From positions 2,356,001 through 2,420,000 of the forward strand of contig NZ_CP048814.1 of NCBI RefSeq assembly GCF_014217785.1: a stretch of 64,000 nucleotides of DNA. Direction: 5' to 3'. A model generated the notes under the pieces. The model was given only the letters and a program-made list of their open reading frames with translations, was not told the origin of the DNA and did not search any database. The position numbers were made by a program, and so were the translations under genes. Position 1 is the stretch's first letter, and every line of letters starts with the position of its first letter. Below are positions 12,667-28,416 of the stretch, in pieces. This DNA is from Rhodococcus triatomae. GTDB taxonomy: Bacteria; Actinomycetota; Actinomycetes; Mycobacteriales; Mycobacteriaceae.

Positions 12667-12792
12667 CTGCCTATCGGTCGGTTCGTCGGGTGCTCTTTGA
12701 CCGGAACGGCACCGACGGCATTGGATGAGCAGCGTGGTGTCCCGGGGTGGCTGCACCGGCCGACGGGCGGAACGACCGAGGAGGTTCGACCC

Positions 12793-14334
12793 ATGACCGT
12801 CGACGCAGATGCTGCCGGACCGCGCGTCACCCACCAGGGACGTACGTCGCTGCAGGCGCGGCTGCGAGAGCTGGCGGAGATCGCCCCGGACCGACCGGCG
12901 ATCACCGACCGTTCCGGCACGATCACCCGGGAGGAGCTGGACCGTCGGACCACGCGATTGGCGAGGAGGTTCGCCGCGCTCGGAGTGACCGCCGGTTCGA
13001 TGGTGTCGATTGCCCTGCCGAACTGCATCCGCCATCTGGAGTCGTCCATCGCGGCGTGGAAGCTGGGCGCCGTCCCGCAGCCGCTGTCGCATCGACTGCC
13101 CGGCACCGAGTTCGAACGGCTGCTCGCGGTGGCTGATCCGGCGCTGGTGGTGGGGCTGGACCCAGGGCAGGGCCGGCCGTGGTTGCGTGGGGACGAGGAC
13201 GTGTCGACCGAGTCCGATACGCACCTGCCGGATATCGTCGCTCCCGCGTGGAAGGCGCCGACGTCCGGAGGGAGCACCGGTAGCCCGAAGCTCATCGTCG
13301 CCGGACAGGAGGCCACGGCCGAGGCGGTTCTCGCTCGTGCCGGGGCACTCCGGATCGCACCGGACGGGGTCATGCTCACCACGGCGCCGATGTATCACAA
13401 TGCGCCCAACATGTTTTCGCTGATGGCCTTGGCGCAGGGAAATCACGTGGTGGTGATGGATCGCTTCGATCCCGAGCACACTCTCGATCTCATCGGCGAG
13501 TACGGCGTCACCTGGCTCTACGTGGTCCCGACGATGATGGGCCGCATGCTGCGCCTTTCGGACGAGATCCGCAGTGCGGCAGACATGTCCAGCCTGCGTA
13601 CCGTGCTCCACGTCGGTGCTCCCTGCCCGCCGAAGGTCAAGCGCGGATGGCTGGAGTGGACCGGACCGGAGACGGTGGTCGAGTTGTACTCGGGGACGGA
13701 AGCGCAGGCCAGTTGCATGATCGACGGCGTCGAGTGGCTGTCCCACCCCGGATCGGTGGGTCGGGTCACGTCGGGTGTGATGACGATTCGGGACGACGGG
13801 TTCCGTGAGGTTCCCGCCGGAACCGTCGGCGAGGTGTGGATGCGACGAGCGGACGGCGCGCCGGAAACCTATCGCTACGTGGGTGCGCAGGCCCGGTGTC
13901 GGGGCGGATGGGAATCCTTGGGAGACCTGGGGCATGTCGATCGAGACGGCTATCTGTACCTCACCGACCGGACCAGCGACATGATTCTCGTGGGCGGGGC
14001 GAATGTCTATCCCGCCGAGGTCGAGGCGGCGCTCGCGGAACACCCGGCGGTACTCACCTGTGCGGTGATCGGGCTTCCCGACGACGACCTCGGCAACACC
14101 GTGCACGCCATCGTGCAGGTCGCCGAGCCGGTCACCGAGGTGGACCTGCGCGAACACCTGCGGGGCCGCCTCGTGTCGTACAAGGTTCCGCGCACGGTCG
14201 AGTTCAGCGACACCCCGTTGCGGGACGACGCCGGCAAGATGAGACGCGGAGCGCTGCGTGCGGCCCGGATCGCCGCGCGGGACCTGAGCGGCGCGGCGGC
14301 GTCTTCCGTCACGGCAGCGAAGTCAGCACCCTGA
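12793..14334 (+). CDS. AMP-forming acyl/aryl-CoA ligase
   Basis: The 513-residue adenylating enzyme has the P-loop TSGGSTGSPKLI, the YSGTEA motif, the ATPase motif LGDLGHVDRDGYLYLTDR and a C-terminal small domain containing NVYPAEVEAAL, with the acceptor-lysine region near RDDAGKMRRG. It activates a carboxylate as adenylate, then thioester. The sequence style (GGSTG, PNMFSLMALAQG) resembles bile-acid or short aromatic acid CoA ligases of actinobacteria, but substrate is unknown. ATG 12793 follows GAGGAGG. It is divergent from a LysR gene and overlaps the convergent tetR by 26 bp. Confidence 0.87.
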   Translation: MTVDADAAGPRVTHQGRTSLQARLRELAEIAPDRPAITDRSGTITREELDRRTTRLARRFAALGVTAGSMVSIALPNCIRHLESSIAAWKLGAVPQPLSHRLPGTEFERLLAVADPALVVGLDPGQGRPWLRGDEDVSTESDTHLPDIVAPAWKAPTSGGSTGSPKLIVAGQEATAEAVLARAGALRIAPDGVMLTTAPMYHNAPNMFSLMALAQGNHVVVMDRFDPEHTLDLIGEYGVTWLYVVPTMMGRMLRLSDEIRSAADMSSLRTVLHVGAPCPPKVKRGWLEWTGPETVVELYSGTEAQASCMIDGVEWLSHPGSVGRVTSGVMTIRDDGFREVPAGTVGEVWMRRADGAPETYRYVGAQARCRGGWESLGDLGHVDRDGYLYLTDRTSDMILVGGANVYPAEVEAALAEHPAVLTCAVIGLPDDDLGNTVHAIVQVAEPVTEVDLREHLRGRLVSYKVPRTVEFSDTPLRDDAGKMRRGALRAARIAARDLSGAAASSVTAAKSAP

Positions 14335-14878
14335 GCATCGTGTCGAGGTAGGCGGGCGAGAGATCCGCCTCGCCGGGCGTCGCGTGGGCGAGCTGGGCGG
14401 CCCCGAGGTAGCCGGTGTAGGCGAGCTGGGCGCGCCGTGCGGCCTCGCCCGGTGGAAACCCGAGTTCGGTGAACTGTTCGGACAGGTAGTCGAGACGCCT
14501 CCGGGTCACTCGTGCCAGCACGGGTGCGACCAGCGGGTGCCGTGCCGTGGCCTGCAGCGCCAGCTCTGCGCGGGCTCCCTGGTCATCGCGGCTCGTGATC
14601 GCGCCGACGATCAGGGCACGCAGCCGGGGTACGCCGGCGGGCTCGGCGTGGATCTCGGCGATGACGTCCTCGGTGTCCTGACGCTCCCACAGCTCCAACG
14701 CGGCCGTGATCAGCGCCTCTCGGCCCGAGAAGTGCCAGTAGAAACTACCTTTCGTCGCGCCGAGGCGGGCCGCGATCGGTTCGACGGCGACGGCCGCGAG
14801 ACCGCCGTCGGCGAGAGCTCCGAGGGCGGCCTCGGTCCAGTCCGATGCGGAGAGACGCTTTCGCGGGGGCACTCCCAT
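14309..14878 (-). CDS. TetR-family transcriptional repressor
   Basis: A 189-residue TetR protein. The DNA-binding domain includes ASDWTEAALGALADGG, then LGATKGSFYWHFSGREALI, with the recognition helix TKGSFYWHF. The C-terminal region is a TetR_C-type helical ligand domain. Its start codon lies inside a perfect palindrome that is repeated before the divergent SRPBCC-DUF2867 gene, so it should repress both itself and that gene. The stop lies within the end of the convergent CoA-ligase gene. Confidence 0.87.
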   Translation of the reverse strand: MGVPPRKRLSASDWTEAALGALADGGLAAVAVEPIAARLGATKGSFYWHFSGREALITAALELWERQDTEDVIAEIHAEPAGVPRLRALIVGAITSRDDQGARAELALQATARHPLVAPVLARVTRRRLDYLSEQFTELGFPPGEAARRAQLAYTGYLGAAQLAHATPGEADLSPAYLDTMLRVLTSLP

Positions 14879-14911
14879 ACGGTACCGTATGTTAAACCGT
14901 ACGGTACCGTA
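14877..14911. promoter_or_regulatory. Twin palindromic TetR operators
   Basis: ATACGGTACCGTAT (14877-14890) is a perfect 14-bp palindrome overlapping the tetR start, and TACGGTACCGTA (14900-14911) is a second copy 22 bp away, just before the divergent gene. Two equal dyads on nearby turns are typical of cooperative TetR binding. Confidence 0.8.
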
Positions 14912-14925
14912 TGGAAGGAGTCGGA

Positions 14926-15915
14926 ATGCGCATCCGCAACATCCACGAGCGAGTGGTCGACGCCGACGCGGAGGACATCGCGCCGCTGCTGGCCACGATC
15001 GGCCAGCCCGACGACGTTCTCTATCCGCCACTGTGGGAACCCATGTGGTTCGACGGGCCGGTGGCTGTCGGTGCGAGCGGCACCCACGGCACGATCACCG
15101 CCTACGAACCGGGCCGCCTGATCGAGATCGCGTTCCCGGACGGAATCGGGGTCACCGGGACACACACGTTCACCGTGACCACCCTCGGCCCGCGGCGCTC
15201 GCTGGTCCGCCACGACGTCGATGCCGATGCCACCCTGGTGGGCTGGCTCGGCTGGCAGGCACTGATCCGCCCGGCCCACGACGCCGTCCTCGAACAGGTT
15301 CTGGATCGACTACAGGCCGGCGTGGGTTGCCCGCCGTCCCGTCCACACGACCCGCCGCCCTACGCCCGGCTGCTGCGCTGGTTCGAGCGGCCCCGCGCCC
15401 GTGCGGTCCCGGTGACGCAGACGGACCTGCTCGCCGGTGCACTCGGCCGGGTCGATCACAGTGACGCCTACGCGACCCCGCGCCGGCGCGAGACCCCCGA
15501 CGACCCTCGGCCCTGGGCGGAGGCGATCTTCGGTGACCTGCCGGCGTGGGTCGCCGCGCTCATGGCCGTGCGCGAACGCCTCGTCGGACTCGTGGGTATC
15601 GACCGGGGCAGTGCGGATACATTCGCCGTTCTCGCAGAGGGAGACGACGAGGTGCTTCTCGGCGCCGACGCGGGCCACCTGGACTTCCGGGCCTCGGTGC
15701 GTCGCGAGCCCGGACGGATCGTGCTGACCACCCTCGTGCGGACGCACAATCGCCGGGGTCGCGCGTACTTCGCGGCGATCCGGCCCCTGCACGCGCTGGT
15801 CGTGCGCGCGATGCTCCGGCGCGCGGCCGCACGGTTGGCGCGATCAGCCCCACCGCGACGACCCGGCTCAGCCCCACCGCGACGACCCGTCGACACACTC
15901 GAAGACGGCGAGTAG
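14926..15915 (+). CDS. SRPBCC-domain/DUF2867-like fusion protein
   Basis: A 329-residue soluble protein. Residues about 1-135 look like an SRPBCC (START-like) ligand pocket: YPPLWEPMWFDGPVAVGASG, then TFTVTTLGPRRSLVRHDVD. Residues about 165-305 resemble DUF2867 (DAYATPRRR, then the domain ending THNRRGRAYFAAIRPLHALV). The two domains are usually separate genes. ATG 14926 has GGAAGGAG ahead; an earlier ATG at 14911 falls in the operator. Regulated by the divergent TetR through twin palindromes. The C-terminus repeats SAPPRRP owing to a 22-bp direct repeat (15844-15865, 15868-15889). Function unknown; lipid or aromatic ligand binding is a guess. Confidence 0.75.
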   Translation: MRIRNIHERVVDADAEDIAPLLATIGQPDDVLYPPLWEPMWFDGPVAVGASGTHGTITAYEPGRLIEIAFPDGIGVTGTHTFTVTTLGPRRSLVRHDVDADATLVGWLGWQALIRPAHDAVLEQVLDRLQAGVGCPPSRPHDPPPYARLLRWFERPRARAVPVTQTDLLAGALGRVDHSDAYATPRRRETPDDPRPWAEAIFGDLPAWVAALMAVRERLVGLVGIDRGSADTFAVLAEGDDEVLLGADAGHLDFRASVRREPGRIVLTTLVRTHNRRGRAYFAAIRPLHALVVRAMLRRAAARLARSAPPRRPGSAPPRRPVDTLEDGE

Positions 15916-16692
15916 CGAACCGATCGACTCCAGGTCCAGCAGACGGGTGGCAGGCGGCGCCGCCGAGCGTCCGGAGCGCACCGCGGGGTCGCACCCGGGT
16001 ACCCGGTCCGTCAGCCAGGCCTGCGCGCGCCGAGTGGCCCCGTCGACCACCGCCATCGCGGTGCCGTGGTGATCGCAGGAGAACTCCAGGGCCGAACGAG
16101 GGAGCAACTCGGCGTGGCCGGCAGGGAGCGCCTCCGGTAGCTCGACCGACACTCCGACGAGCCGGGGCCCGTCGAAGGTGGCGACGGAACGGAGCGCATA
16201 GCGGTGTACGACCCCGTCGACGCGGACCCATTCTCCGGCGAACCGGTCACCGAGTTCGGCACGGCGAACGTCGGTGAGAGTGCACAGGACGTCACCGATC
16301 CGGGCGCATCCGGAGAGCCAGTCCGTCATGGTGCGTCCCTCCGGATCGTCGACGAGAATCGGAGACACCCGATCGGCGAGGTCCCACGCCCAGGAATGCA
16401 CGCGGGGCGCGGGCGGGGGCAGCACGGTGGAGTCACCGATCCACATCAGAATCGCGTGAACCTGCCTGGCGGGCCCCAGGACCGGGTGCGCGAGCGCCAG
16501 CCGCGGACCTTCCAGCAACACCTGGGACTGCTTGAGGTTGTTCATCACGGTCTCGACCAGTTGCTGCACCACCGAGTACACGGATCCGCGAAACACGTTC
16601 GACACCGGCCGCCACTGTTTCGTCCGTGATCCGACCATGAGAACGGTGGGCGCGTCACCGGACGTCTCGATGAGAAACCACCCTTCGTGCAC
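15868..16692 (-). CDS. Rv3651-like (DUF5593/GAF-like) protein
   Basis: A 274-residue protein beginning VHEGWFLIETSGDAPTVLMV, the N-terminal pattern of Rv3651-like proteins of mycobacteria and rhodococci, followed by HAILMWIGDSTVLPPPAP and RVHSWAWDLADRVSPIL, where the domain contacts a PAS-like part. The role of this family is unknown; it may sense a ligand. GTG 16692 is chosen because upstream sequence is arginine-rich antisense. Its last 48 bp overlap the convergent SRPBCC-DUF2867 gene. Confidence 0.75.
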   Translation of the reverse strand: MHEGWFLIETSGDAPTVLMVGSRTKQWRPVSNVFRGSVYSVVQQLVETVMNNLKQSQVLLEGPRLALAHPVLGPARQVHAILMWIGDSTVLPPPAPRVHSWAWDLADRVSPILVDDPEGRTMTDWLSGCARIGDVLCTLTDVRRAELGDRFAGEWVRVDGVVHRYALRSVATFDGPRLVGVSVELPEALPAGHAELLPRSALEFSCDHHGTAMAVVDGATRRAQAWLTDRVPGCDPAVRSGRSAAPPATRLLDLESIGSLLAVFECVDGSSRWG

Positions 16693-16763
16693 GCGACTGC
16701 TCCTCCCCGGATCCGGCTGCCCGTGGCAAGGATACCGGCGGCGGACCGTTCGTTCGCGTGCGG

Positions 16764-18248
16764 TCAGAGCTGGATCCGGAGCGCGAAGTATCTCTCCAGC
16801 ACCTTCAGCATCTGGGTGAGCTCGTCGGCTCCACCGGACCACGCGACGTACCCGTCGGGCCGAACGGCCAGGACCGGCGGATAGTCGGTCGGCAGGCCCT
16901 GCGCGACGACCACGTCGGTGAAGGGAACGGTGCCGAGATCGGCGACGGCGGAGGCTGTCTCCGGATCGGCGACGAGTACGAGAATGCGGCCCCTGCCGAC
17001 CAGTTCCGCCACCGATGTCTGTTCGGATCCCACCACGAGGGCATGGTCGGGGAGGAATGTCCCGTCCAGTTCGTTCTCGGCATCGGGCATCTCGTAGTGC
17101 AGGGAACTGCCGTTGACCTTGTCGGCCAGCCAGTCGTGGACTTCCCGGTGACACAGCATTTCCGACACCATCCGCCGGAGCGGGCCACCTGCGGGTGACG
17201 GGTTCATGATGGTCGACTGCACCCGGGTGTTGTCGATGATCCACTTCCCCACGGGCTGCCGCTCGTGCGAGTAGGTGTCGAGGAGGCTCTCGTCGGCGGC
17301 TCCGGTGGCGACGGCGGCGAGCTTCCAGCCGAGGTTCACGGCGTCGGAGATGCCGGTGTTGAGGCCCTGCCCGCCGAGCGGGTAGTGGATGTGCGCCGAG
17401 TCTCCGGCGAGGAGTAGCCGTCCGTCGCGGTAGTGGTGCACGATTCGGCTGAAATCGCTGAATCTGTTCAGGTAGTACGGAGATTCGAGCTCCACGTGGC
17501 TGCCCACCACCCGGTCGATCGCCGCGCCGTACTCCTCCACCGTCACCGGTGCGTGCCGGTCGGGAGCCGGTCCGTCGAACTCGAAGACGATGATGCGGCT
17601 GAACCCGAATCTGTTGAGGTTCAACAGGGTCCACCCTCTGTCGGTGTGGCTCCAGCCGACCCTCATCTGCTCGGGGTGGGGCAGGCGGGCGAGGCCGAGG
17701 ATCGCGCGCATCGTCGGCGGATACTCGGTGGCTCCGAACTGCCCGTCCCGGCGGACGACACTGCGCCCGCCGTCCGCGCCGACGACGTACTTCGCCTCGA
17801 AGGTCCGGGGCCGGCCCGCCTCGTCGACCGTCTCCACCGCGACGTGGTCGTCGTGTGGGACGACCGACGTCACGGTGGTTCCCCGAACGACCTGTGCCCC
17901 GGCCGCTTCGGCCCGCGTCCCGATCGCGCGTTCGAGATCGGCCTGGGCGATCCCCAGCATCACCGGGCCGTCGATGGTGGGAGCCCGGAGCGTCAGCCAC
18001 GGGTACCCGGCGAACTGGAAGGGCTCCGACGAGATCATCGTGTGGTCGTTGGTACGTCGAGGGAACGAGACGATCCCCCGGCGAGCCAGCGTGGCGATGG
18101 CCCGGGCGTGGTAGGTGCCGGCCTTCGGATGTTCGCTGACGGCGCCCCGGCTCTCGAGGACGACGGCCGAGACGTCGTGCAGCGCCAACTCGTTGGCCAC
18201 CAGCATCCCGACCGGGCCGCCGCCCACCACGATCACGTCGTGACTCAC
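16764..18248 (-). CDS. FAD-dependent aromatic/polyketide-type monooxygenase
   Basis: The 494-residue flavoprotein of the PheA/TfdB class has the FAD dinucleotide motif VIVVGGGPVGMLVANELAL, the DG motif YVVGADGGRSVVRR and the GD motif LLLAGDSAHIHYPLGGQGLN. These enzymes use NAD(P)H and O2 to hydroxylate or cleave aromatic, polyketide or ketone substrates; rifamycin monooxygenase Rox belongs here too, but no RAE is near. It is the last gene of the five-gene afsA operon, starting in an ATGA overlap with the P450 stop, so its substrate is likely the signalling molecule or its product. Confidence 0.87.
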   Translation of the reverse strand: MSHDVIVVGGGPVGMLVANELALHDVSAVVLESRGAVSEHPKAGTYHARAIATLARRGIVSFPRRTNDHTMISSEPFQFAGYPWLTLRAPTIDGPVMLGIAQADLERAIGTRAEAAGAQVVRGTTVTSVVPHDDHVAVETVDEAGRPRTFEAKYVVGADGGRSVVRRDGQFGATEYPPTMRAILGLARLPHPEQMRVGWSHTDRGWTLLNLNRFGFSRIIVFEFDGPAPDRHAPVTVEEYGAAIDRVVGSHVELESPYYLNRFSDFSRIVHHYRDGRLLLAGDSAHIHYPLGGQGLNTGISDAVNLGWKLAAVATGAADESLLDTYSHERQPVGKWIIDNTRVQSTIMNPSPAGGPLRRMVSEMLCHREVHDWLADKVNGSSLHYEMPDAENELDGTFLPDHALVVGSEQTSVAELVGRGRILVLVADPETASAVADLGTVPFTDVVVAQGLPTDYPPVLAVRPDGYVAWSGGADELTQMLKVLERYFALRIQL

Positions 18249-19483
18249 GCCTCACCTCCGTTTCCGAGCGTCACGGGTAGGGCTGCCGGCCGCCGCAGGC
18301 CGGTACCGAAGTCCCACGGTACGTTGGCCGGAGCGCCCCGCAGTGCCAGATGCGGGTAGCGCGCCACGACCGCGCCGATCACCGTGGTCAACTCGATCTG
18401 CGCCAGCGCGGACCCCATGCACCGGTGCATTCCGTAGCCGTACTGCAGGTGCCGTCCGCGCGGCCGGTCCAGGCGGATCTCCAGCGGCTCCGGGAACACG
18501 GACGGATCCCGGTTGGCCGCGTTGATGTGGGGGTAGACGATCTCGCCCGTGGGCAGGACGCCGCTGCTCGTGGTGAGCGGACGGGTGAGCTCGCGGGGAA
18601 AGCTGCCCGGGGTCCCCAGCGGCATGAGACGGAGAATCTCCTCCACCAGATCGGGGATCAGGCCGGGGTCCGCGACGACGGCCTCGTAGAGGCGCCGATC
18701 GGCGAGCGCCGCGTACAGCGTCTTGCTCAGCATGGTGGCGACGTTGTTGTCCCCGCCGAGCACGATCCCCATCACCGTCCCGTCGATGAGTGTCGAGTCG
18801 ACGGCCTCGAAACCGGGCTCGGTGGCCCGCCGCTTGTACACCGCCAGCAGCCCGGAGTCGTCGTGATCGGTGTCCTCGGCCACGAGGCGCTGGACCCACC
18901 CGTAGAGCTCCTGCCAGGCCTCCACGATGAGGTCGACCTCGTCGCGCCTGGCCAGCTGGATTCGGCGGCCGAGCTCGTTCATCGTGCGCGCATGGTCGGT
19001 CGAGATGCCCAGCAGACGGCAGACCACCTGCGCCGGGACCAGCCGGAAGACGTCGCGGACGAGGTCCGGGTCGTCCGACCGTTCCAGGTCGTCGAGGGCC
19101 TGTCCGGTGAGTTCGAGGATCGTCGGTTCCAGGTCCCGCATCGCCCGTGCGCTGAACTCGTGGGAGACGAACTCGCGGACGACTCCGTGAACCGGAGCAT
19201 CCAGATTGATGAGTACTTCCGGCGCCCAGTTGGTGGGCATGAACGACGGTCCCCCGTCGACGTTGCAGCTCTCCCTGCTGGCCGTGCGATCGAGCAGCAG
19301 GCTCTTCGCGTCCTCGTAGGAGGTCAGGCAGACGGCGGTGTGCCCGCTGGGGAGTTCGACGCGCAGGTGCCCGTCCGTGCTCGGCACCTCGCGCACGTAG
19401 GGGGCCGGAGTGTCCAGGTGCGGGATGTCCGTCACCCGGGGGTGCGGTCCTGCTGTGGTCGTGGGTGTGAGTGTGCGTGTCAT
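18245..19483 (-). CDS. Cytochrome P450
   Basis: The 412-residue bacterial class I P450 has the ExxR motif EEILR (281-285) and the haem loop YGYGMHRCMG (348-357, Cys355). The usual Phe of the haem loop is Tyr. The I-helix oxygen-activation motif, normally AGxDT, reads LGGDNN (242-247), replacing the acid-Thr pair by Asp-Asn. It needs ferredoxin partners encoded elsewhere. Fourth in the afsA operon, overlapping both neighbours by 4 bp. In Streptomyces rochei a P450 acts on an AfsA-made butenolide precursor, which suggests a similar tailoring role. Confidence 0.9.
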   Translation of the reverse strand: MTRTLTPTTTAGPHPRVTDIPHLDTPAPYVREVPSTDGHLRVELPSGHTAVCLTSYEDAKSLLLDRTASRESCNVDGGPSFMPTNWAPEVLINLDAPVHGVVREFVSHEFSARAMRDLEPTILELTGQALDDLERSDDPDLVRDVFRLVPAQVVCRLLGISTDHARTMNELGRRIQLARRDEVDLIVEAWQELYGWVQRLVAEDTDHDDSGLLAVYKRRATEPGFEAVDSTLIDGTVMGIVLGGDNNVATMLSKTLYAALADRRLYEAVVADPGLIPDLVEEILRLMPLGTPGSFPRELTRPLTTSSGVLPTGEIVYPHINAANRDPSVFPEPLEIRLDRPRGRHLQYGYGMHRCMGSALAQIELTTVIGAVVARYPHLALRGAPANVPWDFGTGLRRPAALPVTLGNGGEA

Positions 19484-21096
19484 CGTCGTATCTCCTCGGT
19501 GCTCGCAGCGGGAAGGGGTGCAATGGGTTCGACGGGATCGAGGTTCGGCTCGGCGGGGACGTCGGCCGATCCCTGCGGTGCCGACGGTGCGGTGGCGGCC
19601 GGGCGGCGGAGTAGCACCGTGATCGCCACCGCGAGCACGAGGCTGATGACTGCCAGGGCCCACAGCAGCGGGATCAGGCCGTCGGAGAAGCTGTTTCGTA
19701 GCAGTTCGGCGTTCAGGGACGGGTCCACGCTTCCGATCTCGCCCGTGACGACCTGGTCGACGACGGTGTCCCTGGCCGCGGGATCCAGAGAATCCGGAAG
19801 CTGACTGCGGACCTGAGCGCCGACGCCGGTCGTCAACGCGCTGGCGAAGGCCGCGACCACGAGGGCTTCGCTGCCGAGTCGGACGGTGGAGACCAGGCCC
19901 GAGACCATGCCGGACCTCTCCGGCGGAACCGACCCGATCGCCTGGCCGTCGACGAGTCCGACACCGAGTCCGAACCCGGTTCCCAGCAACAGGAACGGCA
20001 CGACAAGCGCGAGAATGTCGCGGTCGGTTCCTGCCGTGGTGAGCAGTGCCGCGCCCGCCACGAAGAACAGGGCGCTGCCACCGAGGATGATCCACACCGG
20101 GACACCCCGTGTGTGCAGCGCTCCCGCGACGAGTGGAGCGAGGATGACCGGGACCGTCATCAGCAGCATGACCAGTCCCGTTTCGCCCGCACTCAATTGC
20201 CATACGGTGTTGAGGAATGTCGGGTAGTACGTCAGCAGGGTGACGAACCCGACTGCACCGGCGACCGGGACGAGCAGCAGCCCGACGAGTCGGGGCGAAC
20301 GCAGCAGTCCGATGTCGAGCAGTGGATGGTCACCGGTCCACTGGATCCGGATGAACACGGCGAACAACGCGATCCCGGCGGCGAGTGTGCCGAGGGTGGC
20401 GGCAGAACCCCAGCCCCAGGAATCCGCCTGCACGACAGCAGCGATCACGAGGGTCAGCGACACGGCGAAGGCGATCGCACCCCGGTAGTCCAGCTTCCCG
20501 GCGTCGTGCGCCGGGGTGTCGTGCACCCCGGAGAGGACGACCAGAAGTCCGGACGCCGCGATGGCAGCGGCGTTGAACCAGAAGATGCCGGGCCAGCCGA
20601 CCAGTGAGATGGCGGTCGACGAGATGGTGGGTCCGAGCCCCAGGCCCACGCCTGCGGCGGTACCGAACAGCGCGAACGCGCGGGCCGCGGCGGCGCCGTC
20701 GAAGGTGATCGCCAGCAGCGCGCCGGAGCAGGCGAAGATGATCGCGGCCCCGATACCGGCCAGCGCGCGACCGATGTCCAGGATCAGCAGGGTGGGTGCG
20801 AGGGCACTGAGCACGGCGGAGCCGAAGAACAGGAGGGCGCCGACGATCAGGCCGCGCCGCCGACCCAGATGGTCGGCGACGGATCCTGCCACCAGGCTGA
20901 ACACCGCGAAAGTGAGGTTGAATCCGTTGACGACCCACTGCAACATCGCCGGTGAGGAACTGAGATCGGCGGCGATGTGGGGCAGGGCGACACCGGTGCC
21001 CGAGACTCCGGTGGGGACCACGACGACGGCGAGGAGGATGCCGGCGAGCAGCACCTTCGGCCGTGCCGTGGTCCGGGATACGTCGGTGACCGTCAT
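19480..21096 (-). CDS. MFS exporter, DHA2 (14-TM) type
   Basis: A 538-residue major facilitator with about 14 membrane segments. DHA2 features include LPHIAADLSSSPAMLQWVVN in the first helices, the A-loop GSVADHLGRRRGL and the C-motif region GPTISSTAI. The C-terminal cytosolic tail (about 45 residues) is Pro/Ala-rich. It is the third gene of the afsA operon with 4-bp overlaps on both sides, so export of the small molecule made by the operon is the likely role. Confidence 0.9.
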   Translation of the reverse strand: MTVTDVSRTTARPKVLLAGILLAVVVVPTGVSGTGVALPHIAADLSSSPAMLQWVVNGFNLTFAVFSLVAGSVADHLGRRRGLIVGALLFFGSAVLSALAPTLLILDIGRALAGIGAAIIFACSGALLAITFDGAAAARAFALFGTAAGVGLGLGPTISSTAISLVGWPGIFWFNAAAIAASGLLVVLSGVHDTPAHDAGKLDYRGAIAFAVSLTLVIAAVVQADSWGWGSAATLGTLAAGIALFAVFIRIQWTGDHPLLDIGLLRSPRLVGLLLVPVAGAVGFVTLLTYYPTFLNTVWQLSAGETGLVMLLMTVPVILAPLVAGALHTRGVPVWIILGGSALFFVAGAALLTTAGTDRDILALVVPFLLLGTGFGLGVGLVDGQAIGSVPPERSGMVSGLVSTVRLGSEALVVAAFASALTTGVGAQVRSQLPDSLDPAARDTVVDQVVTGEIGSVDPSLNAELLRNSFSDGLIPLLWALAVISLVLAVAITVLLRRPAATAPSAPQGSADVPAEPNLDPVEPIAPLPAASTEEIRR

Positions 21097-21821
21097 CGCT
21101 GCGTCACCTCGACCTGGAGTGCACCCGGAGCCTGCGCCGGGACCGACAGCAGTTCCCGGAGGTCGGCCACCGCCTGATCGGTGTCGCCGAAGCGGACCGC
21201 CCCCCAGCCGGCGGATCGTGCGGCCTCGCAGTTGACGCCCAGATCGTCGACGAGAATCGATGTTCCCGGTGCGGCACCGATCCGCTCCTCGGCGATGCGG
21301 AAGATCTCCGGATCGGGCTTGCGGACCCCGACCGCGTAGGAATCGACGATGACGTCGACGTGGTCGTCCAGATCGACCATCCGCCGCCAGTACGGTTCCC
21401 ACTCACGGACGTTGTTGGTCAGGATCCCGACGCGGTAGCCCTTCCCGGACAGATCGATCACCAGGTCGCGGACGGCGGTGTTCACCTGGTGGCCGGCGAA
21501 CCACTGTGCGCCGAAGTCCGGTTCGGAACGGGACACGTCGACGCCGCGCGGGACGAGCCAGCGGTGCATCCGTTCGACCCATTCGACCTCGGAGATCAGA
21601 CCGAGTTCGACCGGGGCGAGGACGTCGACGCCGAGTCCGTTCGCGACACTGGCCATGGCCGCTTTCAGTTGTGCCGGAGAGATTCCGGTCTTGCGCTCGT
21701 AGTCGAGGAAGAGATCCTCGATCGGTGGGGACAGGACCCCGCCGAAGTCCACGAAGACCGTGCCGTACCGGCCTCGGCCGGTGTGGTGCGGGAACGTGCG
21801 GGCAGTGAGTATCCGGCTCAT
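21093..21821 (-). CDS. HAD-superfamily phosphatase
   Basis: A 242-residue HAD-like hydrolase. Motif I reads VFVDFGGVL (the second Asp is replaced by Gly, as in several HAD-IA members), motif II is ILTNN, the conserved Lys is in VRKPDPEIF and motif IV is ILVDDLGVNCEAA. It sits directly after the AfsA-type gene with an ATGA overlap. In butyrolactone pathways the AfsA product is a phosphorylated butenolide that must be dephosphorylated, and S. rochei encodes a phosphatase (SrrP) for it. That role is inferred from position. Confidence 0.85.
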   Translation of the reverse strand: MSRILTARTFPHHTGRGRYGTVFVDFGGVLSPPIEDLFLDYERKTGISPAQLKAAMASVANGLGVDVLAPVELGLISEVEWVERMHRWLVPRGVDVSRSEPDFGAQWFAGHQVNTAVRDLVIDLSGKGYRVGILTNNVREWEPYWRRMVDLDDHVDVIVDSYAVGVRKPDPEIFRIAEERIGAAPGTSILVDDLGVNCEAARSAGWGAVRFGDTDQAVADLRELLSVPAQAPGALQVEVTQR

Positions 21822-22864
21822 CGGACCACCTCGTGTGCCGGAGTCGCGTGTGCCGGAAGTGCGCGTCCCGATCGGGCGAACGTCACCTGGCATTCGGCGA
21901 TGGGTACTCGCTCCTGCGCGATGACCACTGTGAACAGCACCGTCCCCGAGGTGCTTTCGCTCGGCAGTGACACCGTTGCCGTCGTCGGCAGATCCAGCTC
22001 ACCGAATCGGGTGAAGTTCGCGGCGAGCTCGGTGACCTCGAGTCGGCGGGCGCTGAGCCCGAAGAACTCGTCGGCCGCCACCAGCCCGGACTGCCGGACC
22101 GCTTCGAAGATCACCGCCCCGGGGATGTGGTCGAGGGGATGGTCGAACAGGCTCGGGTGGCCTTCGTCGACCACGACGTCCAGTTCGACATGGCCCTCGT
22201 GGGTGTGGCGGGGTGCACCGACGACGACGTTGCGGGTCAGGGTGCGGCCCACGGACGCGGCAGGTAGGACGATGGCGGGCGAGTGCGGCTCGCGCCCTGG
22301 CTGCGGTGCGATGCCCGGTCGGTACGGTTCGAGCCCCAGCTTCGACCGCCCGGAATCCCGGATGCGCTTCCACACCGGTCGGGGCATCCACTGGATGACC
22401 ATCGACATGGACACGGCCAGGTCTCCGTCCAGCGAGATCGCCATCTCGAGTGTGATCCCCACGGTGCTGCCGTCCCGCTTCTTCTCGTCGACGATGCGGG
22501 CGGCCAGCTCTCCGTTCCCCGGGCCGACCCGCAGGGAGGCCGCGCCGGTCGAGACGACCTCGAGATCGCCCGAGTTGAAGATGAACGACTGGTCGTATCC
22601 CGCGTCGACATGGCGGTGCGCGATCAGGATGGACGCCTGGCGGAAGCACTCCAGGAACAGGAGCGTGTCGTACCGACCCGCCGCGACGCCCAGATGGTCG
22701 CTGTAGTAGCTGTGTGATTTCGGAAGGTGTACGCCGATACGAAAATTCGGGTACCGGTCGCAGATGATGTCGGTGAGGTAGACCTCGGACAATGCCTCGC
22801 GGTGGACGTGTTCACGCGGGACGAGTGTCGAATGGGAAACCTGTGGTGCGATCGTGGATGTCAC
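21818..22864 (-). CDS. AfsA-type gamma-butyrolactone/butenolide synthase
   Basis: The 348-residue protein contains two AfsA hot-dog repeats. The first (about 20-150) has REHVHREALSEVYLTD and SHSYYSDHLG followed by DTLLFLECFRQA. The second (about 195-330) has HPSLFDHPLDHIPGAVIFEA followed by VRQSGL, the most conserved AfsA signature. AfsA enzymes condense a beta-ketoacyl thioester with dihydroxyacetone phosphate to make the precursor of A-factor-like hormones. GTG 22864 with GAGGGG upstream is chosen. It leads five genes that all overlap by 4 bp. No butyrolactone receptor (ArpA-type TetR) or ketoreductase lies in the window. Confidence 0.9.
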   Translation of the reverse strand: MTSTIAPQVSHSTLVPREHVHREALSEVYLTDIICDRYPNFRIGVHLPKSHSYYSDHLGVAAGRYDTLLFLECFRQASILIAHRHVDAGYDQSFIFNSGDLEVVSTGAASLRVGPGNGELAARIVDEKKRDGSTVGITLEMAISLDGDLAVSMSMVIQWMPRPVWKRIRDSGRSKLGLEPYRPGIAPQPGREPHSPAIVLPAASVGRTLTRNVVVGAPRHTHEGHVELDVVVDEGHPSLFDHPLDHIPGAVIFEAVRQSGLVAADEFFGLSARRLEVTELAANFTRFGELDLPTTATVSLPSESTSGTVLFTVVIAQERVPIAECQVTFARSGRALPAHATPAHEVVR

Positions 22865-23556
22865 GGCGAGCCCCTCGGAGTCGGTTTTCGGTCGGCAGCG
22901 TCCACGGCGGTTCCGCGCAGGCAGCGACCGGCGGGGCCGGCAGCGCAGGCGGAGTGGAGGCTGTGCAAGCGAAGGCGAAACGAGTCCGGCGCGTCTCGGG
23001 CTTGTAAGCAAGGGGCTCGCAAGCGACTGTCACTCGGACAAGATCGACTGTACTCGAGCGGCGCGGCGCTGTCGCGGCAAAGAATCACCGTGCGTGAAAG
23101 CGTCCCGTTCGCCCGATTCGCGAGGCCTGACTCGAATGAGTAAAGATCAAGACCCGCAACGTGATACGGGTCACTCTCTTGTTCGGCGTCCTTGGATCCG
23201 TGGGCGATTCGGGATTTCCTTCGACGCGATCGGCAACCGCCCCGATCCGGATGCCTCGCGCTCGCCCAGGGGTCTCGACCGGAAGTACCGAGCCAGGCTC
23301 CGGGCAGAACGTGAGGAAGTGTGGACGTACTGGTTCCGGATCCACGCACGGGCGACTGCCCCGAAATGACTGCACGGGAAATGTGTGGATCATGGGCCCC
23401 GACATCTCGCGGAGAGCTCCGCAGGTGAGCAACACATCCAACCGGCACGGACCCACTGTGTAACGGCGAGCGTCCGTCCGCCGACGAGTGAGGTGACGTG
23501 ACGCACGGCACCGGGGTCGTGCCGTGTGCGGGAGAATCGGGATTGGGGATCGGGAC
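22865..23556. other. Non-coding interval between the afsA operon and cutinase-family gene
   Basis: 692 bp with no convincing gene; short frames on both strands are arginine/proline-rich and lack family resemblance. It must hold the divergent promoters. A perfect 6-bp-arm dyad GACCCG/CGGGTC lies at 23151-23172, a TACAGT possible -10 for afsA at 23052-23047, and a dyad CACGGCAC/GTGCCGTG at 23504-23526 about 30 bp before the cutinase start. A small RNA here cannot be excluded. Confidence 0.5.
23151..23172. promoter_or_regulatory. Candidate operator upstream of the afsA operon
   Basis: GACCCG (23151-23156) and CGGGTC (23167-23172) form a perfect dyad with a 10-bp spacer, a spacing compatible with TetR-family binding. 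It does not resemble the Streptomyces autoregulatory element closely, and it is about 290 bp from the afsA start, so the assignment is weak. Confidence 0.3.
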
Positions 23557-25254
23557 ATGGCTCTTGGTGGCTTCTTCGCGCGGCATCGCCTCGCTGCGGG
23601 CGTGGCGGCGCCGGCGATCCTGGGGGTCGCCGCGGTCGCGGCCGTCGGTCTGGCCGTGTCCCCCGGCCCGCGGGCCATCGACACGCAGCTGACGACCTCG
23701 GTGACCGAGTGTCGCGACATGGTGACCATCTCGGTCGCCGGCCGTGGAGACACACCGGTCGAGGGCACCACCAAGCTGCTCGTCGGGCCGAACGGCGAGC
23801 CGCTCCCTGCGGCCCTGTCCAGCGATTACGCCAGCGAATGGGTCGATCCCGTGGTCAACGCTCCTGGCGGTGCCGTCGGTGCGGATTCGTACGCCGCGGT
23901 GTACATCGCCTATCCCGCCAACATGGCGACCTACGAGGACGCCGTCGCCGCCGGGGTGGAGAACTCCGAGCGGGTGATGCGGGAAATCCGCTCGGCCTGC
24001 CCGGACACCCGGTTCGCGATCGTCGGATACAGCGAGGGCGCCGACGTGGTGCGCCGCGTCGCCATGAACATCGGGCACCAGGAAGCCGACGAGAACGGCG
24101 GGTACGGCATCGTCGACCCGGCCAATGTCGTCGGCGTGGTGATCCTCGCCGACGCCGGCCGCGCGCCGGGAGACGGCCCGTTCCCCGGCGCGAAGAATCC
24201 GTTCGGGAACCCGGACAACTTCGACCAGAACTATTCGAACGGAACGGCACCTACCCCGGGCCAGGGCGCGATGCCGGACACCGGTGGCGACTTCGGTGCT
24301 CTCGACGGCAAGATCGCGTCTTTCTGCTCCGAGGGCGACCTCACCTGCGCGGCACCCGAGAGCATCTCCCTGCTGCAACTCGCGGTCAACGTGGGCAGGC
24401 AGCTGAACGTCGATGCGCTCGAGGACGAGGGGCTCACCCCGGCCACCGGCCAGGACGTTGCCGTCGTGCTCAGTGGTATCGCGTTCGCCGCGTTCGCCGA
24501 CATCCAGTCGCAGGGCAACTGGATGCAGAGCGACGAGACGTTCCTCGAGGTGCTGCTCAAGGTGTCGGACCCCTCGTACCAGCCGGGCGAACCCGCCCAG
24601 AAGCCCGCGAAGGCGGACTCCATCTCCGGTGAGGAACTGTCGCCGCTGGCGTACCTCCCGCAGAAGGTGTTCAACGAGATCGTCGGACTGATCGTGACGA
24701 ACCAGAACACCATCCCCGTGGTGATGAGCGATCCGTACCAGCTCACCCTGGGCCCGAATGCCACCGGCCACCACTTCGACTACTGGAAGGACGCGGATCC
24801 GGCGAACGGCAAGCCGCTGACATCCGCCGAGTACGCGGCGGCCTGGCTCACCCACCTGGCGAAGCAGGCGCAGGCGGGCGAACCGATCGACACGTCGGCC
24901 ACGCCCGACGCCGCCGACATCGCCGCGGCATTCGACGCGGCCGCGGCCACCGAGGCCGCGCGCGAGGCACTCCCCGCAGTGGCGGCGGACGAGAAGGCCC
25001 AGGCGACGACCGGTGGTCCCTCCGCGCCCACGACCACGTCATCGGAGTCCGCCACCGCACCGGCCACCGACGACGGGACGGATGGGCCGGACTCCGCTGG
25101 GCCCGAATCGACTGGGCCCGAATCCGCTGGGTCCGAGGTCACGCCGACTTCGGCCGCACCGTCCACCCGGGACACGACGCGCAGCGCGCCGACCACGACG
25201 ACGACCACCACGACGACGACCACCCCTCCGCCGGCTCCTCGCCCCGGCGGCTGA
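23557..25254 (+). CDS. Cutinase-family secreted serine hydrolase with Thr/Pro-rich tail
   Basis: A 565-residue protein with an N-terminal signal or anchor (residues about 10-34), then an alpha/beta cutinase-like domain: VAGRGDTPVEG, the nucleophile elbow VGYSEGADVV (Ser159), an acid near FCSEGDLTC and a His in GHHFDYW. Mycobacterial relatives (Culp family) hydrolyse lipids, esters or mycolates at the envelope. After residue about 440 the sequence becomes Ala-rich and then a Ser/Thr/Pro/Gly-rich linker with DSAGPESTGPESAG repeats and eleven consecutive Thr, ending in PPPAPRPGG. The tail probably spans or sticks to the cell wall. ATG 23557 gives a short N-terminus before the hydrophobic stretch. 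Confidence 0.85.
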   Translation: MALGGFFARHRLAAGVAAPAILGVAAVAAVGLAVSPGPRAIDTQLTTSVTECRDMVTISVAGRGDTPVEGTTKLLVGPNGEPLPAALSSDYASEWVDPVVNAPGGAVGADSYAAVYIAYPANMATYEDAVAAGVENSERVMREIRSACPDTRFAIVGYSEGADVVRRVAMNIGHQEADENGGYGIVDPANVVGVVILADAGRAPGDGPFPGAKNPFGNPDNFDQNYSNGTAPTPGQGAMPDTGGDFGALDGKIASFCSEGDLTCAAPESISLLQLAVNVGRQLNVDALEDEGLTPATGQDVAVVLSGIAFAAFADIQSQGNWMQSDETFLEVLLKVSDPSYQPGEPAQKPAKADSISGEELSPLAYLPQKVFNEIVGLIVTNQNTIPVVMSDPYQLTLGPNATGHHFDYWKDADPANGKPLTSAEYAAAWLTHLAKQAQAGEPIDTSATPDAADIAAAFDAAAATEAAREALPAVAADEKAQATTGGPSAPTTTSSESATAPATDDGTDGPDSAGPESTGPESAGSEVTPTSAAPSTRDTTRSAPTTTTTTTTTTTPPPAPRPGG

Positions 25255-25261
25255 CGCGGGG

Positions 25262-25843
25262 TCACCCGCCGGCAGATGCCCCGATCGCGTCGATGATCGC
25301 CGCGGAGAAGGCGGGCAGATCGTCGGGATTGCGTGAGGTGATGAGGGCGAAACCGTGAGCGTCGTCCACGACGACCTCCCGGTCCACCCAGTCGCCACCC
25401 GAGTTCGTGATGTCGGTACGCAGGGACGGGTAGGACGTCAGGGTCCTGCCCGCGGACAGCGCGGTCTCGACCAGCAGCCACGGACCGTGGCACACCGCGG
25501 CCACCGGCTTGCCGGCGTCGGCGAACTCACGGACCAGGCGCTGAGCGTCCTCGTTCAGGCGGAGAGTGTCCGCGTTGAGCGTGCCGCCCGGGACGATCAC
25601 GACGTCGTGGTCCCGCGCGTCCACCGCGGCGAGTGTCGTGTCCGGGCTGACGTCCGGGCCCGGATCGGCATCGCCGACGAGGGTACGGATCGGGCCGTCC
25701 TCGACGGCGGCGACGGTGACGGCGACTCCGGCGTCACGCAGGGCGCGGACCGGCTGCTCGATCTCGGCGTGCTCGGTGCCGTAGTTGGTGGAGATGACGA
25801 GAGCCGTGCGGCTTCGTGCCGCGATATCGGTCGTGTCGGTCAT
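25262..25843 (-). CDS. DJ-1/PfpI-family (class I glutamine amidotransferase-like) protein
   Basis: The 193-residue protein has the PfpI/DJ-1 flavodoxin-like fold. The nucleophile elbow AVCHGPWLL carries the reactive Cys and a following His, and DVVIVPGGT forms the upstream loop. Relatives are proteases, chaperones or glyoxalase/deglycase-type enzymes that handle electrophile stress; the HGPWLL context is typical of general stress protein 18-like members. It converges on the cutinase gene with an 8-bp gap and is 18 bp downstream of the DHA2 exporter gene, likely cotranscribed. Confidence 0.88.
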   Translation of the reverse strand: MTDTTDIAARSRTALVISTNYGTEHAEIEQPVRALRDAGVAVTVAAVEDGPIRTLVGDADPGPDVSPDTTLAAVDARDHDVVIVPGGTLNADTLRLNEDAQRLVREFADAGKPVAAVCHGPWLLVETALSAGRTLTSYPSLRTDITNSGGDWVDREVVVDDAHGFALITSRNPDDLPAFSAAIIDAIGASAGG

Positions 25844-25861
25844 GGTGCTCCTTCCGTTCCG

Positions 25862-27601
25862 CTATCGCGGTACCCGGTCCTCCGGGGTCTCAACCACGGC
25901 ACCGTCGTCGGACTGTCCGGGCGGGACCTCGTCGGAACCGGGCGTGGCCTCGTCCGCACTCGCACCGGATGTGGGCGAGGCGTCGGGTGCGGAGGAATCC
26001 TCCGTCGCTGCGTCGACGAGCGACGTGCCGCGGCTCCACGGCATGAAGATCGCGAACACGATCGCGGTGACGACGACGCTGACGACCATCACCATCGCCG
26101 AGATCTTCCATCCCTGCATGGCGGCGTCCTGCATGGCGTAGACGAGGCTGTTCGGATCGTCGAGGTCGTTGACCGACGCGGGAAGGCCCGGGCGGCCGAG
26201 GATTTCGAGCACCGACACCGGTGAATTGACGATGAGATCGCGCTCACGATCGGAGAGGAAGGTCGAGACGATCGGGCCGTAGGAGTCGAGCTTCTCGGAG
26301 ACGATCTCGTGGTACCGCCCGAACAGGACCGATCCGAGCACCGCGATTCCCAGCGCTCCGCCCACCTCACGCGTGGTGTCGTTGACCGCCGACCCGGCGC
26401 CCGCCTCGTCGGCGGGCACGGACGACATGATCGAGTCGGTCACCGGGCCGGTGACGATGCCGAGCCCTCCGCCCATGAGGATCATCGAGCCGAACGGGAT
26501 CTCCCAGTAGGTGGTGTCGATCGTCGCCTGACCGGCCCAGTACAGACCGGCGGCGAGCACCGCCATCCCCACCACCACGACGACCGTGTGGCCGTATCGG
26601 TAGCCGAACCAGGTGGCGACCGGGGCACCGATACCGATGGCGGCGGCGAACGGGAGGGAGTGGATACCGAAGGTGAGTGGATCCATCAGCAGCACCGCCT
26701 GGAAGTACTGGCTGACGATGAAGAGGAAGCCGAACATGGCGAAGTAGGAGACGGCGAGAGCCATTGCCGGGAAGGCGAATCGGGGAATCCGGAACAGCCT
26801 CACATCGAGCACCGGGTACGGGGCCCGCAACTCCCACCACGCGAACAGGGCCAGGAGCGCGAGGGCACCCGCGACCCCGCCGAAGGTCGCGGCCGAGATC
26901 CACCCGTGCCGGGGAGCTTCGATGAAGCTCCACACCAGCAGGAAGATGGCCGCGATCGACAGCGCGATGCCGACCGCGTCGATGGGGCCGTGCTTCTCCG
27001 AGCGGGACTCACCGATGAAGACGAGGGTCAGCGCAACAGCGACCGCCGCGACCGGGAGATTCATCCAGAAGATGGAATGCCAGGTGAAATGGTTCAGCAG
27101 CCAGCCACCGATGGTGGGCCCGATGGCGACGGCGAATCCCGCCATCGCCGTCCACGCGGCGATACCGAGGGCCCGAGCACGCGGCTTCCGGAACACCGTG
27201 GTGATGATCGCCAGGGTCGCCGGGAACACCGCTGCCGCGGCGATTCCCATTCCGGCTCGTGCCACGAGTACCTGCGTCACGGATTCGGCGACCGCTCCGA
27301 CCACGGACATCACGGCGATACCGACGAGTCCGGCGATCATGACCCGGCGCCGGCCGTAGCGGTCTCCCAGGTGGCCGAACATCAGCAGCAGCCCTGCGAA
27401 GGGAAGGGTGTAGGAGTCGACAACCCATTGCAGCGCACTGAAACCCGCGTCCAGCTCGTTGGCCAGCGTCGGTAGCGCCACGACGACGACCGTGTTGTCG
27501 AGCAGGACGAGAAGCACGGCGAGGCACGAGGTCACGAGTGCGCCGAGCGCGAGCCATTTCTCGCGGGGCGATACCTCCGGTTCGGCGGTGACGGTCGACA
27601 T
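25862..27601 (-). CDS. MFS multidrug exporter, DHA2/EmrB type
   Basis: A 579-residue protein with 14 predicted membrane helices; DHA2 features include LDNTVVVVALPTLANELDAG, the FSALQWVVDSYTL motif and LGDRYGRRRV in the first cytoplasmic loop. The C-terminal tail is acidic and Ser/Pro-rich. The divergent TetR at 28417 and the SRPBCC gene just upstream suggest a TetR-controlled efflux unit for a hydrophobic compound. A hairpin with 7-bp arms (27633-27651) lies in the 149-bp gap before the start. Confidence 0.9.
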   Translation of the reverse strand: MSTVTAEPEVSPREKWLALGALVTSCLAVLLVLLDNTVVVVALPTLANELDAGFSALQWVVDSYTLPFAGLLLMFGHLGDRYGRRRVMIAGLVGIAVMSVVGAVAESVTQVLVARAGMGIAAAAVFPATLAIITTVFRKPRARALGIAAWTAMAGFAVAIGPTIGGWLLNHFTWHSIFWMNLPVAAVAVALTLVFIGESRSEKHGPIDAVGIALSIAAIFLLVWSFIEAPRHGWISAATFGGVAGALALLALFAWWELRAPYPVLDVRLFRIPRFAFPAMALAVSYFAMFGFLFIVSQYFQAVLLMDPLTFGIHSLPFAAAIGIGAPVATWFGYRYGHTVVVVVGMAVLAAGLYWAGQATIDTTYWEIPFGSMILMGGGLGIVTGPVTDSIMSSVPADEAGAGSAVNDTTREVGGALGIAVLGSVLFGRYHEIVSEKLDSYGPIVSTFLSDRERDLIVNSPVSVLEILGRPGLPASVNDLDDPNSLVYAMQDAAMQGWKISAMVMVVSVVVTAIVFAIFMPWSRGTSLVDAATEDSSAPDASPTSGASADEATPGSDEVPPGQSDDGAVVETPEDRVPR

Positions 27602-27632
27602 TGCTCAGCTCACTTTCACGAATGGCGGGGCC

Positions 27633-27651
27633 CGCGAACGGCGTGTTCGCG
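27633..27651. repeat. Short inverted repeat before the DHA2 exporter gene
   Basis: CGCGAAC (27633-27639) and GTTCGCG (27645-27651) pair across a 5-base loop, about 30 bp upstream of the exporter start in the 27602-27750 gap. It may be an operator or a leader hairpin; no T-run follows. Confidence 0.4.
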
Positions 27652-27750
27652 AACGAATCGGACGACGGGGGTGCTTCCCGGATCAGAGGAGAGGGACGCG
27701 GCGGTAGAGCTGTTTCGCCGGCCCGGTGACGAGTCCGGCCGTCGAGTGCG

Positions 27751-28278
27751 TCACGGGTAGCTCCTCGTCTGGTCGCCGGCACCCTTCGGGGTGCCGAAAT
27801 GTGTTCTCGTGTCACGAACGAAGGTGGTGAACACGAACTTGTTCACCGGGGAGCCGAGCCGGGCGGCCACGCCGAATCCGCGGCGTGGCGCCAGCGCGAA
27901 CGTCCAGACCAGACGACTTCCGGTCGGTGTGCTCTGGATCAGGTAGTCCTCGGCGAACGCCGAGAACAGCGGAACATTCGAGCCGGTCACGAAGAACGAG
28001 TGCCGGGTGTTCTCCTCGTCCCAGCGGAAGAACTGCTCGTTCATCCGCATGGCGCCGTGGGCGAGAACGGCCGTCCGGGTGGTTCCGATGCCGTACGGAC
28101 CGCTCGTCGTGTATTCGACGTCGGTGAGCAGCCGGCACCAGGAGAGTGGTCGTTGCGTCGTGAGGCCCGCCCAGACGCTCTCGGCGGGGGCCGCGACGTC
28201 GATCGAGTACCGCCACCGCATCGGCGCCGAGTCGAAGAAGTCGCTGCCCACCGGTGTCATGTCGAACTCGAGTGCCAT
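27751..28278 (-). CDS. SRPBCC-family (START-like) protein
   Basis: A 175-residue protein with the SRPBCC pattern: RWRYSIDVAAPAESVWAGLT at the start, GPYGIGTTRTAVL, and a C-terminal helix region ending FTTFVRDTRTHF. Family members bind hydrophobic ligands in a deep pocket. ATG 28278 follows AAGGAGAG. It is divergent from a TetR gene, and a promoter with TTGACT and TAGTCT boxes lies 45-75 bp upstream. Ligand binding in support of the exporter downstream is a guess. Confidence 0.8.
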   Translation of the reverse strand: MALEFDMTPVGSDFFDSAPMRWRYSIDVAAPAESVWAGLTTQRPLSWCRLLTDVEYTTSGPYGIGTTRTAVLAHGAMRMNEQFFRWDEENTRHSFFVTGSNVPLFSAFAEDYLIQSTPTGSRLVWTFALAPRRGFGVAARLGSPVNKFVFTTFVRDTRTHFGTPKGAGDQTRSYP

Positions 28279-28322
28279 GGCCCTCTCCTTGGTCGACCGG
28301 GTGTTGTCCGGGAGTGGAGGAA

Positions 28323-28352: not shown

Positions 28353-28416
28353 TGGTCCGGGGTGGGAGGAGGGCACGCTGCTATGCTCGCGGCCAGAGAA
28401 TCGGGAGGTAGACGAC

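Follow-up and report, generated by a model that had tools for sequence, protein, structure and literature searches.

The window analysed here is a stretch of 64,000 nucleotides from Rhodococcus triatomae (contig NZ_CP048814.1, positions 2,356,001 to 2,420,000), whose minus strand carries a run of five genes that begins with an AfsA-family synthase and is followed by a probable sixth gene. Genes of the AfsA kind are commonly labelled hormone synthases, and the initial annotation of this DNA had described the five genes as a signalling cluster. In gene order they are:

21818..22864, minus strand: afsA, AfsA-family double-hotdog synthase (GTG start, 348 aa, first gene; PF03756 in two stretches)
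21093..21821, minus strand: HAD phosphatase (242 aa, D-F-G-G nucleophile motif, PF00702; 4-bp overlap with afsA)
19480..21096, minus strand: DHA2-type MFS exporter (538 aa, PF07690; 4-bp overlap with the HAD gene)
18245..19483, minus strand: cytochrome P450 (412 aa, PF00067, non-canonical I-helix GGDNNV; 4-bp overlap with the MFS gene)
16764..18248, minus strand: class-A FAD monooxygenase with a C-terminal domain (GTG start, 494 aa, PF01494 and PF21274; 4-bp overlap)
15868..16692, minus strand: Rv3651-like gene, probable sixth gene (PF18007; 71 bp downstream of the FAD gene)

The Pfam matches bear out the five gene identities given in the initial annotation, and coordinates and sequence confirm its statement that every junction among the five is a 4-bp overlap (ATGA, ATGA, ATGA and GTGA in gene order on the minus strand). 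The exporter's top NCBIfam match, efflux_EmrB, is under its cut-off. The 4.77-Mb single-contig genome yielded one AfsA gene, its two matches being the two hotdog halves. A 4-bp overlap alone is not unusual and four in a row are not unique: such overlaps occur at 6 of 11 same-strand neighbour pairs annotated in a 19-kb stretch of the Rhodococcus fascians plasmid pFiD188, a small and favourable sample that includes a related AfsA operon with four consecutive 4-bp overlaps of its own, and at 17 of the 28 junctions counted over the window plus six loci of the same gene order, where the start taken was the candidate closest to a 4-bp overlap and two of the four Corynebacterium oculi junctions could not be scored. 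The row of overlaps stops at the Rv3651-like gene because of the gap ahead of it; in Nocardia australiensis a 4-bp overlap with the FAD gene is possible if the first ATG is used. We lean, with moderate confidence, towards the five genes forming a single operon for biosynthesis and export, coupled in translation and representing type I of a cassette that recurs in actinobacteria.

The comparison of afsA neighbourhoods that the initial annotation had proposed shows that the cluster is no one-off. Scanning genomes with five aligned AfsAs gave 127 relatives, and around the best 80 of these we looked for partner genes by tblastn with the five window proteins (E ≤ 1e-10, best match per locus). All five genes lie near afsA at 35 of the 80 loci, so that the exporter and monooxygenase, correctly noted at the outset but taken for additions to the clusters familiar then, are fixed parts of a recurring cassette. 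A cassette was defined by five genes within 10 kb and an AfsA in the clade described below, a definition that includes the window, and the 35 loci show five arrangements:

Type I: window order AfsA-HAD-MFS-P450-FAD, 6 of 35 loci: Williamsia maris (L041), Rhodococcus sp. KRD197 (L042), C. oculi (L043), Nocardia otitidiscaviarum (L044), N. australiensis (L048) and Gordonia polyisoprenivorans (L063)
Type II: AfsA-HAD-P450 facing FAD-MFS, 12 loci
Type III: a reversed FAD gene between HAD and MFS-P450, 13 loci
Type IV: AfsA-HAD-P450, ArsR, MFS-FAD, 3 loci
One further gene order: L059

The Rv3651-like gene directly follows the FAD gene in all six type I loci and in three more type I genomes (L169-L171), and the clusters behind L138, L140 and L141 each have six genes in the window order. 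No locus outside the AfsA clade set out next had more than two of the four partners, with the exception of pFiD188, which has three. On a tree of 99 AfsA rows, from which L063 and L099 were left out for their short AfsA open reading frames, the 34 cassette AfsAs, including that of the window, require a single label change (support 100/97) and fall within a 43-row clade. Set apart from these are the 18 Rhodococcus GblA-type rows, which with the R. jostii orthologue (L119) make up another clade that also takes in two Pseudonocardiaceae rows. The C. oculi AfsA stands among Nocardiaceae rows, which suggests transfer. Pairwise distances for the five proteins and a small ArsR-type protein found with most of them are correlated (r = 0.81-0.96), with none of 500 label permutations as high (36 clusters; 29 for ArsR).

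This ArsR-type gene is present in 29 of the 35 clusters, that is, in every one except those of type I. Two of the proteins were scanned with Pfam, L033 scoring over the HTH_5 and HTH_20 cut-offs and L034 under both. In types II and IV the gene is divergent from the MFS gene, except at L045, where it lies upstream of afsA. We searched for a 22-bp palindrome pattern, AGGT-N14-ACCT, with at least six of eight arm positions matched, and found it inside 17 of the 29 ArsR-bearing clusters: before the exporter gene in 14, before ArsR in L070 and L073, and, in L064, before afsA alone. Counting by distance, a palindrome lies within about 100 bp of afsA in six clusters (L050, L052, L055, L056, L064 and L086). 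Outside the clusters all 35 loci together hold four, and none of the six type I clusters has one, nor does the window cluster (the sole match in the window is at 14138). The window genome holds no close relative of the cassette ArsR, the best match reaching 41 bits elsewhere in the genome. The Rv3651-like gene occurs in 3 of the 29 ArsR-bearing clusters. We suggest that in most relatives the small ArsR repressor would control the exporter and sometimes afsA too, and that it probably senses the product or an intermediate; methylenomycin's mmr exporter presumably has an ArsR partner as well, which we take as an analogy only. A weak ArsR match (43 bits) before an afsA fragment at L063 was not counted, as its neighbours look by eye like arsenic resistance genes.

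Type I clusters have instead a conserved block upstream of afsA, part of which is complementary to the afsA Shine-Dalgarno (SD) region:

22983..23030, minus strand: conserved leader block upstream of afsA, from alignments and a sequence-only model, so far in type I only
23009..23020, minus strand: GCGAGCCCCTTG, possible anti-SD arm, forming a 12-bp helix with 22866-22877 in the minimum-energy fold
22866..22877, minus strand: CGAGGGGCTCGC, afsA SD region and other arm, pairing with 23009-23020

We compared ten distinct type I leaders (window, L041, L138, L042, L043, L141, L140, L167, L044 and L048), of which L041 and L138 are near copies and L043 and L141 close kin. The block begins 117-164 nt before the afsA start codon and has a consensus made up, in order, of AGTCG(C/T)T, CCC.T and (G/A)CCC; 18 of its alignment columns do not vary. 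With a sequence-only model of it, every one of nine type I genomes (9/9) had a single strong match (E ≤ 7e-7), and in four further cassette genomes (G021, G025, G026 and G610, the last of which carries an ArsR cassette) no match went below E 0.07. Run against 39 sources, the model picked out the window, five of the six type I loci and otherwise a single match of no meaning (E 3.2); at the sixth type I locus, L063, the sequence stops short of the leader, which is present in the genome (G664). Since the model was built from these leaders, the news lies in the absence elsewhere, and none of the 29 ArsR-bearing loci has the block. A second, weak match in the window genome (C1:510586, E 0.014) lies amid unrelated open reading frames and was set aside as chance, and an Rfam search of window positions 22700-23600 found no known RNA family, only a chance miRNA match.

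An anti-SD:SD helix of 9-12 bp is possible in eight of the ten leaders. Only 2 of 1000 shuffled blocks pair as well as the 12-bp helix of the window, and in seven leaders, near copies and close kin included, at most 4 of 1000 do. Whole-leader folds, computed for the window and L042, use this helix and beat shuffles (z -2.5 and -3.3), and RNAalifold on eight leaders predicts it as the sole helix. In a hand-set register both arms change, with G-C, A-U and G-U at offset -1, A-U and G-C at -2 (broken in two of eight) and G-C and A-U at -3 (broken in five of eight). These observations point to an mRNA leader able to cover the afsA ribosome-binding site, which together with the Rv3651-like protein probably takes over control in type I, where ArsR is gone. 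The N-terminal part of that protein is similar to PDB 4q6u, listed as an uncharacterised protein, and Rv3651 itself presumably has sensory-type domains.

The strongest competitor, to which we give a substantial though minority probability, is that the block works at the level of DNA, as an operator or promoter element instead of an RNA structure, and that its C-rich match to the SD region is incidental. Judged by eye the block lies just after a likely promoter, and in the window, L041 and L042 it contains a short inverted repeat, GCTTG...CAAGC. L044 and L048 retain the block without a good SD match, their pairing being no better than that of shuffles, and the pairing of L140 is weak (105/1000). 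The block alone folds no better than shuffles, and RNAalifold counts no double change, with two rows out of register in its alignment. The anti-SD arms are nearly invariant, and when the SD arms of seven leaders are exchanged, 384 of 5040 permutations pair as well as the real combination, which leaves species-specific covariation undemonstrated; with a block core that hardly varies, covariation in the leader is thin. What speaks for RNA over DNA is the pairing in seven of ten leaders, the changes on both arms at the three offsets and the two whole-leader folds. Going further, one could suppose that type I swapped ArsR for a cis-acting RNA on the ribosome-binding site, possibly a metabolite-sensing riboswitch, in an operon whose exported product would be an undescribed butenolide or furan oxidised by the P450 and the flavin enzyme, a conjunction we consider unlikely.

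The enzymes of the cassette have features in common that bear on its chemistry. Both E..RQ motifs, which we take from work on ScbA to be catalytic, are kept in all 99 compared AfsAs, that of the window among them, and no solved-structure relative of AfsA was found by sequence. All 36 cassette HAD proteins, counting the window's, have DFGGV[LF], and helix I of all 36 cassette P450s reads G[GA]D[NQH]N[VI]. Aligned with 5uhu, the one solved P450 compared, this motif stands where the usual acid-alcohol pair is; the pair has a catalytic role in P450s, and its absence means that the reaction may be atypical. No ferredoxin partner turned up around the P450 in a rough motif scan. For the FAD protein, the solved relative with the highest score is 4k5r (266 bits), listed as an oxygenase, which we take to be the mithramycin Baeyer-Villiger enzyme MtmOIV. 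In the pathway we propose, AfsA would join a beta-ketoacyl thioester to dihydroxyacetone phosphate and the HAD enzyme would take off the phosphate, leaving a butenolide (or furan), first steps that follow AfsA chemistry as published (PMC7037778, PMC7564063); the P450 and flavin monooxygenase would then oxidise this compound and the MFS protein would export it.

We favour, as the product, an exported and oxidised butenolide- or furan-like metabolite that is more likely self-protected than a classical autoregulator. A bioactive compound against which the producer protects itself is a better match to the ArsR-plus-exporter layout than is an autoregulator of the ArpA/ScbR kind. Several points weigh against the picture as a whole. 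Twelve of the 29 ArsR clusters have no palindrome under the strict pattern; nine AfsAs of the 43-row clade are without the full five-gene set; shared species history contributes to the distance correlations; the P450 is without the usual acid-alcohol pair, and plain hydroxylation is not assured; and MFS export is also possible for a signal molecule. Among the nine incomplete members, L072, L074, L077 and L080 are on short or ending contigs and five are not: L049 is without any of the four partners, HAD is the sole one at L051, L054 and L062, and L061 has MFS and ArsR only. In Rhodococcus opacus (L049/L031) the solitary afsA has flanks like those of full cassettes in R. tibetensis and R. wratislaviensis and is adjoined by a weak ArsR similarity (49 bits) and an Rv3651-like gene, which looks like cassette loss.

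The initial annotation had likened the operon to the butenolide pathway of Streptomyces rochei (SRB) and suggested that it could make a butyrolactone- or butenolide-like molecule. In an autoregulator system of this type the product would be a hormone, with a receptor that belongs to another family or was missed. The set srrX, srrP and srrO likewise comprises AfsA, a phosphatase and a P450 as published (PMC7564063), the window AfsA retains both E..RQ motifs, and R. jostii RHA1 is described as making a gamma-butyrolactone-like molecule with gblA (PMC5735094). Signalling is nevertheless the weakest of the earlier claims. No ArpA/ScbR-type receptor was found, as the initial annotation had noted for the locus, and in a genome-wide search with NF041196 (ScbR-type, 150 bits) that scored 79 of the window genome's 115 first-look candidates, a fraction that leaves room for a missed receptor, none passed the cut-off (best E 6.5e-24). 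The window genome is the sole exception among 28 genomes of the genus, the other 27 having a match over the cut-off; genomes without an AfsA match have such receptors too, so receptor presence alone means little. The window AfsA lies outside the Rhodococcus GblA clade and scores 184.4 bits against the ScbA/BarX equivalog NF041195, under the 200-bit cut-off, compared with 275 for R. jostii. L042, L043 and L064 are also under it, but the AfsA of pFiD188 and the cassette AfsAs L044, L050 and L068 are over, so the clade is not delimited by this score. The eight neighbouring genes scanned (12697-29004: AMP-binding, two TetR, DUF2867, Rv3651-like, cutinase-like, PfpI and MFS genes) include nothing like srrG or srrH, and the absence of a ketoreductase reported initially holds for the same genes. 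With the repressor-plus-exporter layout of the relatives, this leaves the hormone reading as one we rather doubt.

A furan pathway like that of methylenomycin, in which AfsA, HAD and the flavin enzyme would give a 2-alkyl-4-hydroxymethylfuran-3-carboxylic acid (AHFCA) for the P450 to decorate, has the published core of an AfsA-like protein, a phosphatase and a flavin-dependent enzyme in its favour (PMC7037778, PMC12593393), as well as AfsA-HAD-FAD triads in Nocardiopsis, Thermobifida and others of the survey set, but is improbable given that AhfaH is described as 384 aa (PMC7037778) against 494 aa with a C-terminal domain in the window, and that cassette AfsAs do not group with triad AfsAs on the tree. 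A HAD match on a Streptomyces anthocyanicus plasmid, tried as a stand-in for SCP1, was rejected, having no mmf or mmy genes around it. MmyD is described as AvrD-like (PMC12593393), and nothing relevant on MmyJ was found in a literature search.

The cassette appears to be rare across genomes. At E ≤ 1e-40, 33 of 401 family genomes have an AfsA relative, which is not always part of a cassette, with up to five candidates scored in each genome. For cassette-like P450s at E ≤ 1e-100 the count is 3 of 397 order genomes, where scoring covered four candidates apiece and may have missed some. Four single genera at E ≤ 1e-60 gave 2/8, 3/242, 2/59 and 1/37 genomes; one of the three in 242 (G830) has 40% identity and an AfsA-HAD start with a reversed FAD gene. 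Within the window's genus (28 genomes), type I was seen in the window genome only.

Other features of these loci deserve mention. In G. polyisoprenivorans G664 (contig C89, L167) afsA is split, with residues 1-111 and 112-332 about 12 kb apart, which suggests an insertion. A second, different MFS-type gene, recognised by similarity and by Pfam for L041 and L048 only, adjoins four of the six type I clusters:

L041 8364-10073: second MFS-type gene
L048 17212-18534: second MFS-type gene
L044 17305-18201: second MFS-type gene
L043 9455-9775: second MFS-type gene

The script-called exporter reading frame of the C. oculi cluster (L043) is only 238 aa long, which may reflect a damaged gene or an assembly error. 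L036 (G019) shows a different kind of AfsA cluster, in which a divergent AfsA (24%) adjoins an MFS gene, with TetR, aldo/keto reductase, SDR and acyltransferase/ketosynthase-like neighbours judged by eye from translations. On two Streptomyces plasmids (L123, L124) AfsA and HAD genes lie together amid ketosynthase genes, and these AfsAs, part of the comparison group, fall elsewhere on the tree. When the window genes outside the cluster were compared with 14 loci, nothing appeared beyond matches of the MFS family, one cutinase-like gene and three matches to window genes lying far off. The cutinase-like gene (window 23524-25254) is divergent from afsA, and a 66% relative of it in the congener G014 (L035 12280-13455) is about 3 kb from a GblA-type afsA and a TetR gene, perhaps marking a shared location for AfsA loci.

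Since an entire clade of AfsAs is accompanied by genes for oxidation and export, and in most cases by ArsR, some loci that genome mining labels ‘butyrolactone’ may instead make bioactive metabolites for export. The split between repressor and leader would be a case of one pathway swapping control modes and, if true, the type I leader would represent RNA-level control of an AfsA-family synthase, in a compact cassette of about 6 kb present in named strains. A search of the open-access literature found no description of the five-gene combination and no product already assigned to it.

Among known systems, the gblA-gblR-gblE genes of R. jostii RHA1 (RJB, 6-dehydro SCB2; PMC5735094) likewise place an AfsA-family synthase in a rhodococcus, but there gblA is described as grouped with genes for an epimerase and a TetR receptor, the AfsA it encodes is of a type in another clade, and the main text on gblA mentions no P450, hydrolase or monooxygenase. 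The SRB genes of S. rochei (srrX, srrP, srrO, srrG and srrH; PMC7564063) have AfsA, phosphatase and P450 in common with the window, whereas srrG (dehydrogenase), srrH (thioesterase) and the ArpA-type receptor have no counterpart among the window neighbours scanned, and the class-A FAD enzyme and MFS protein are extra in the window, by comparison with the gene content as published. The AHFCA systems mmfL-mmfP-mmfH and ahfaLPH (PMC7037778) share AfsA, phosphatase and a flavin enzyme but are described with TetR receptors and a flavin enzyme of another size, whereas the window has a P450 and an MFS protein. Closer in layout is the pFiD188 operon (L122), AfsA-HAD-MFS-FAD-aldo/keto reductase, in which all junctions are 4-bp overlaps as in the window; its proteins are 32% (AfsA), 37% (HAD), 31% (MFS) and 28% (FAD) identical to those of the window, but it has an aldo/keto reductase instead of the P450 and an AfsA outside the cassette clade. 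This operon lies near argininosuccinate synthase, argininosuccinate lyase and LysR genes. The ArsR cassettes of Streptomyces, Kitasatospora, Nocardia, Rhodococcus, Gordonia, Williamsia and Glycomyces have the same five genes and the same AfsA clade as the window, and differ from it in gene order, in an ArsR gene often accompanied by palindromes, and in the leader block, which was found with the window order alone.

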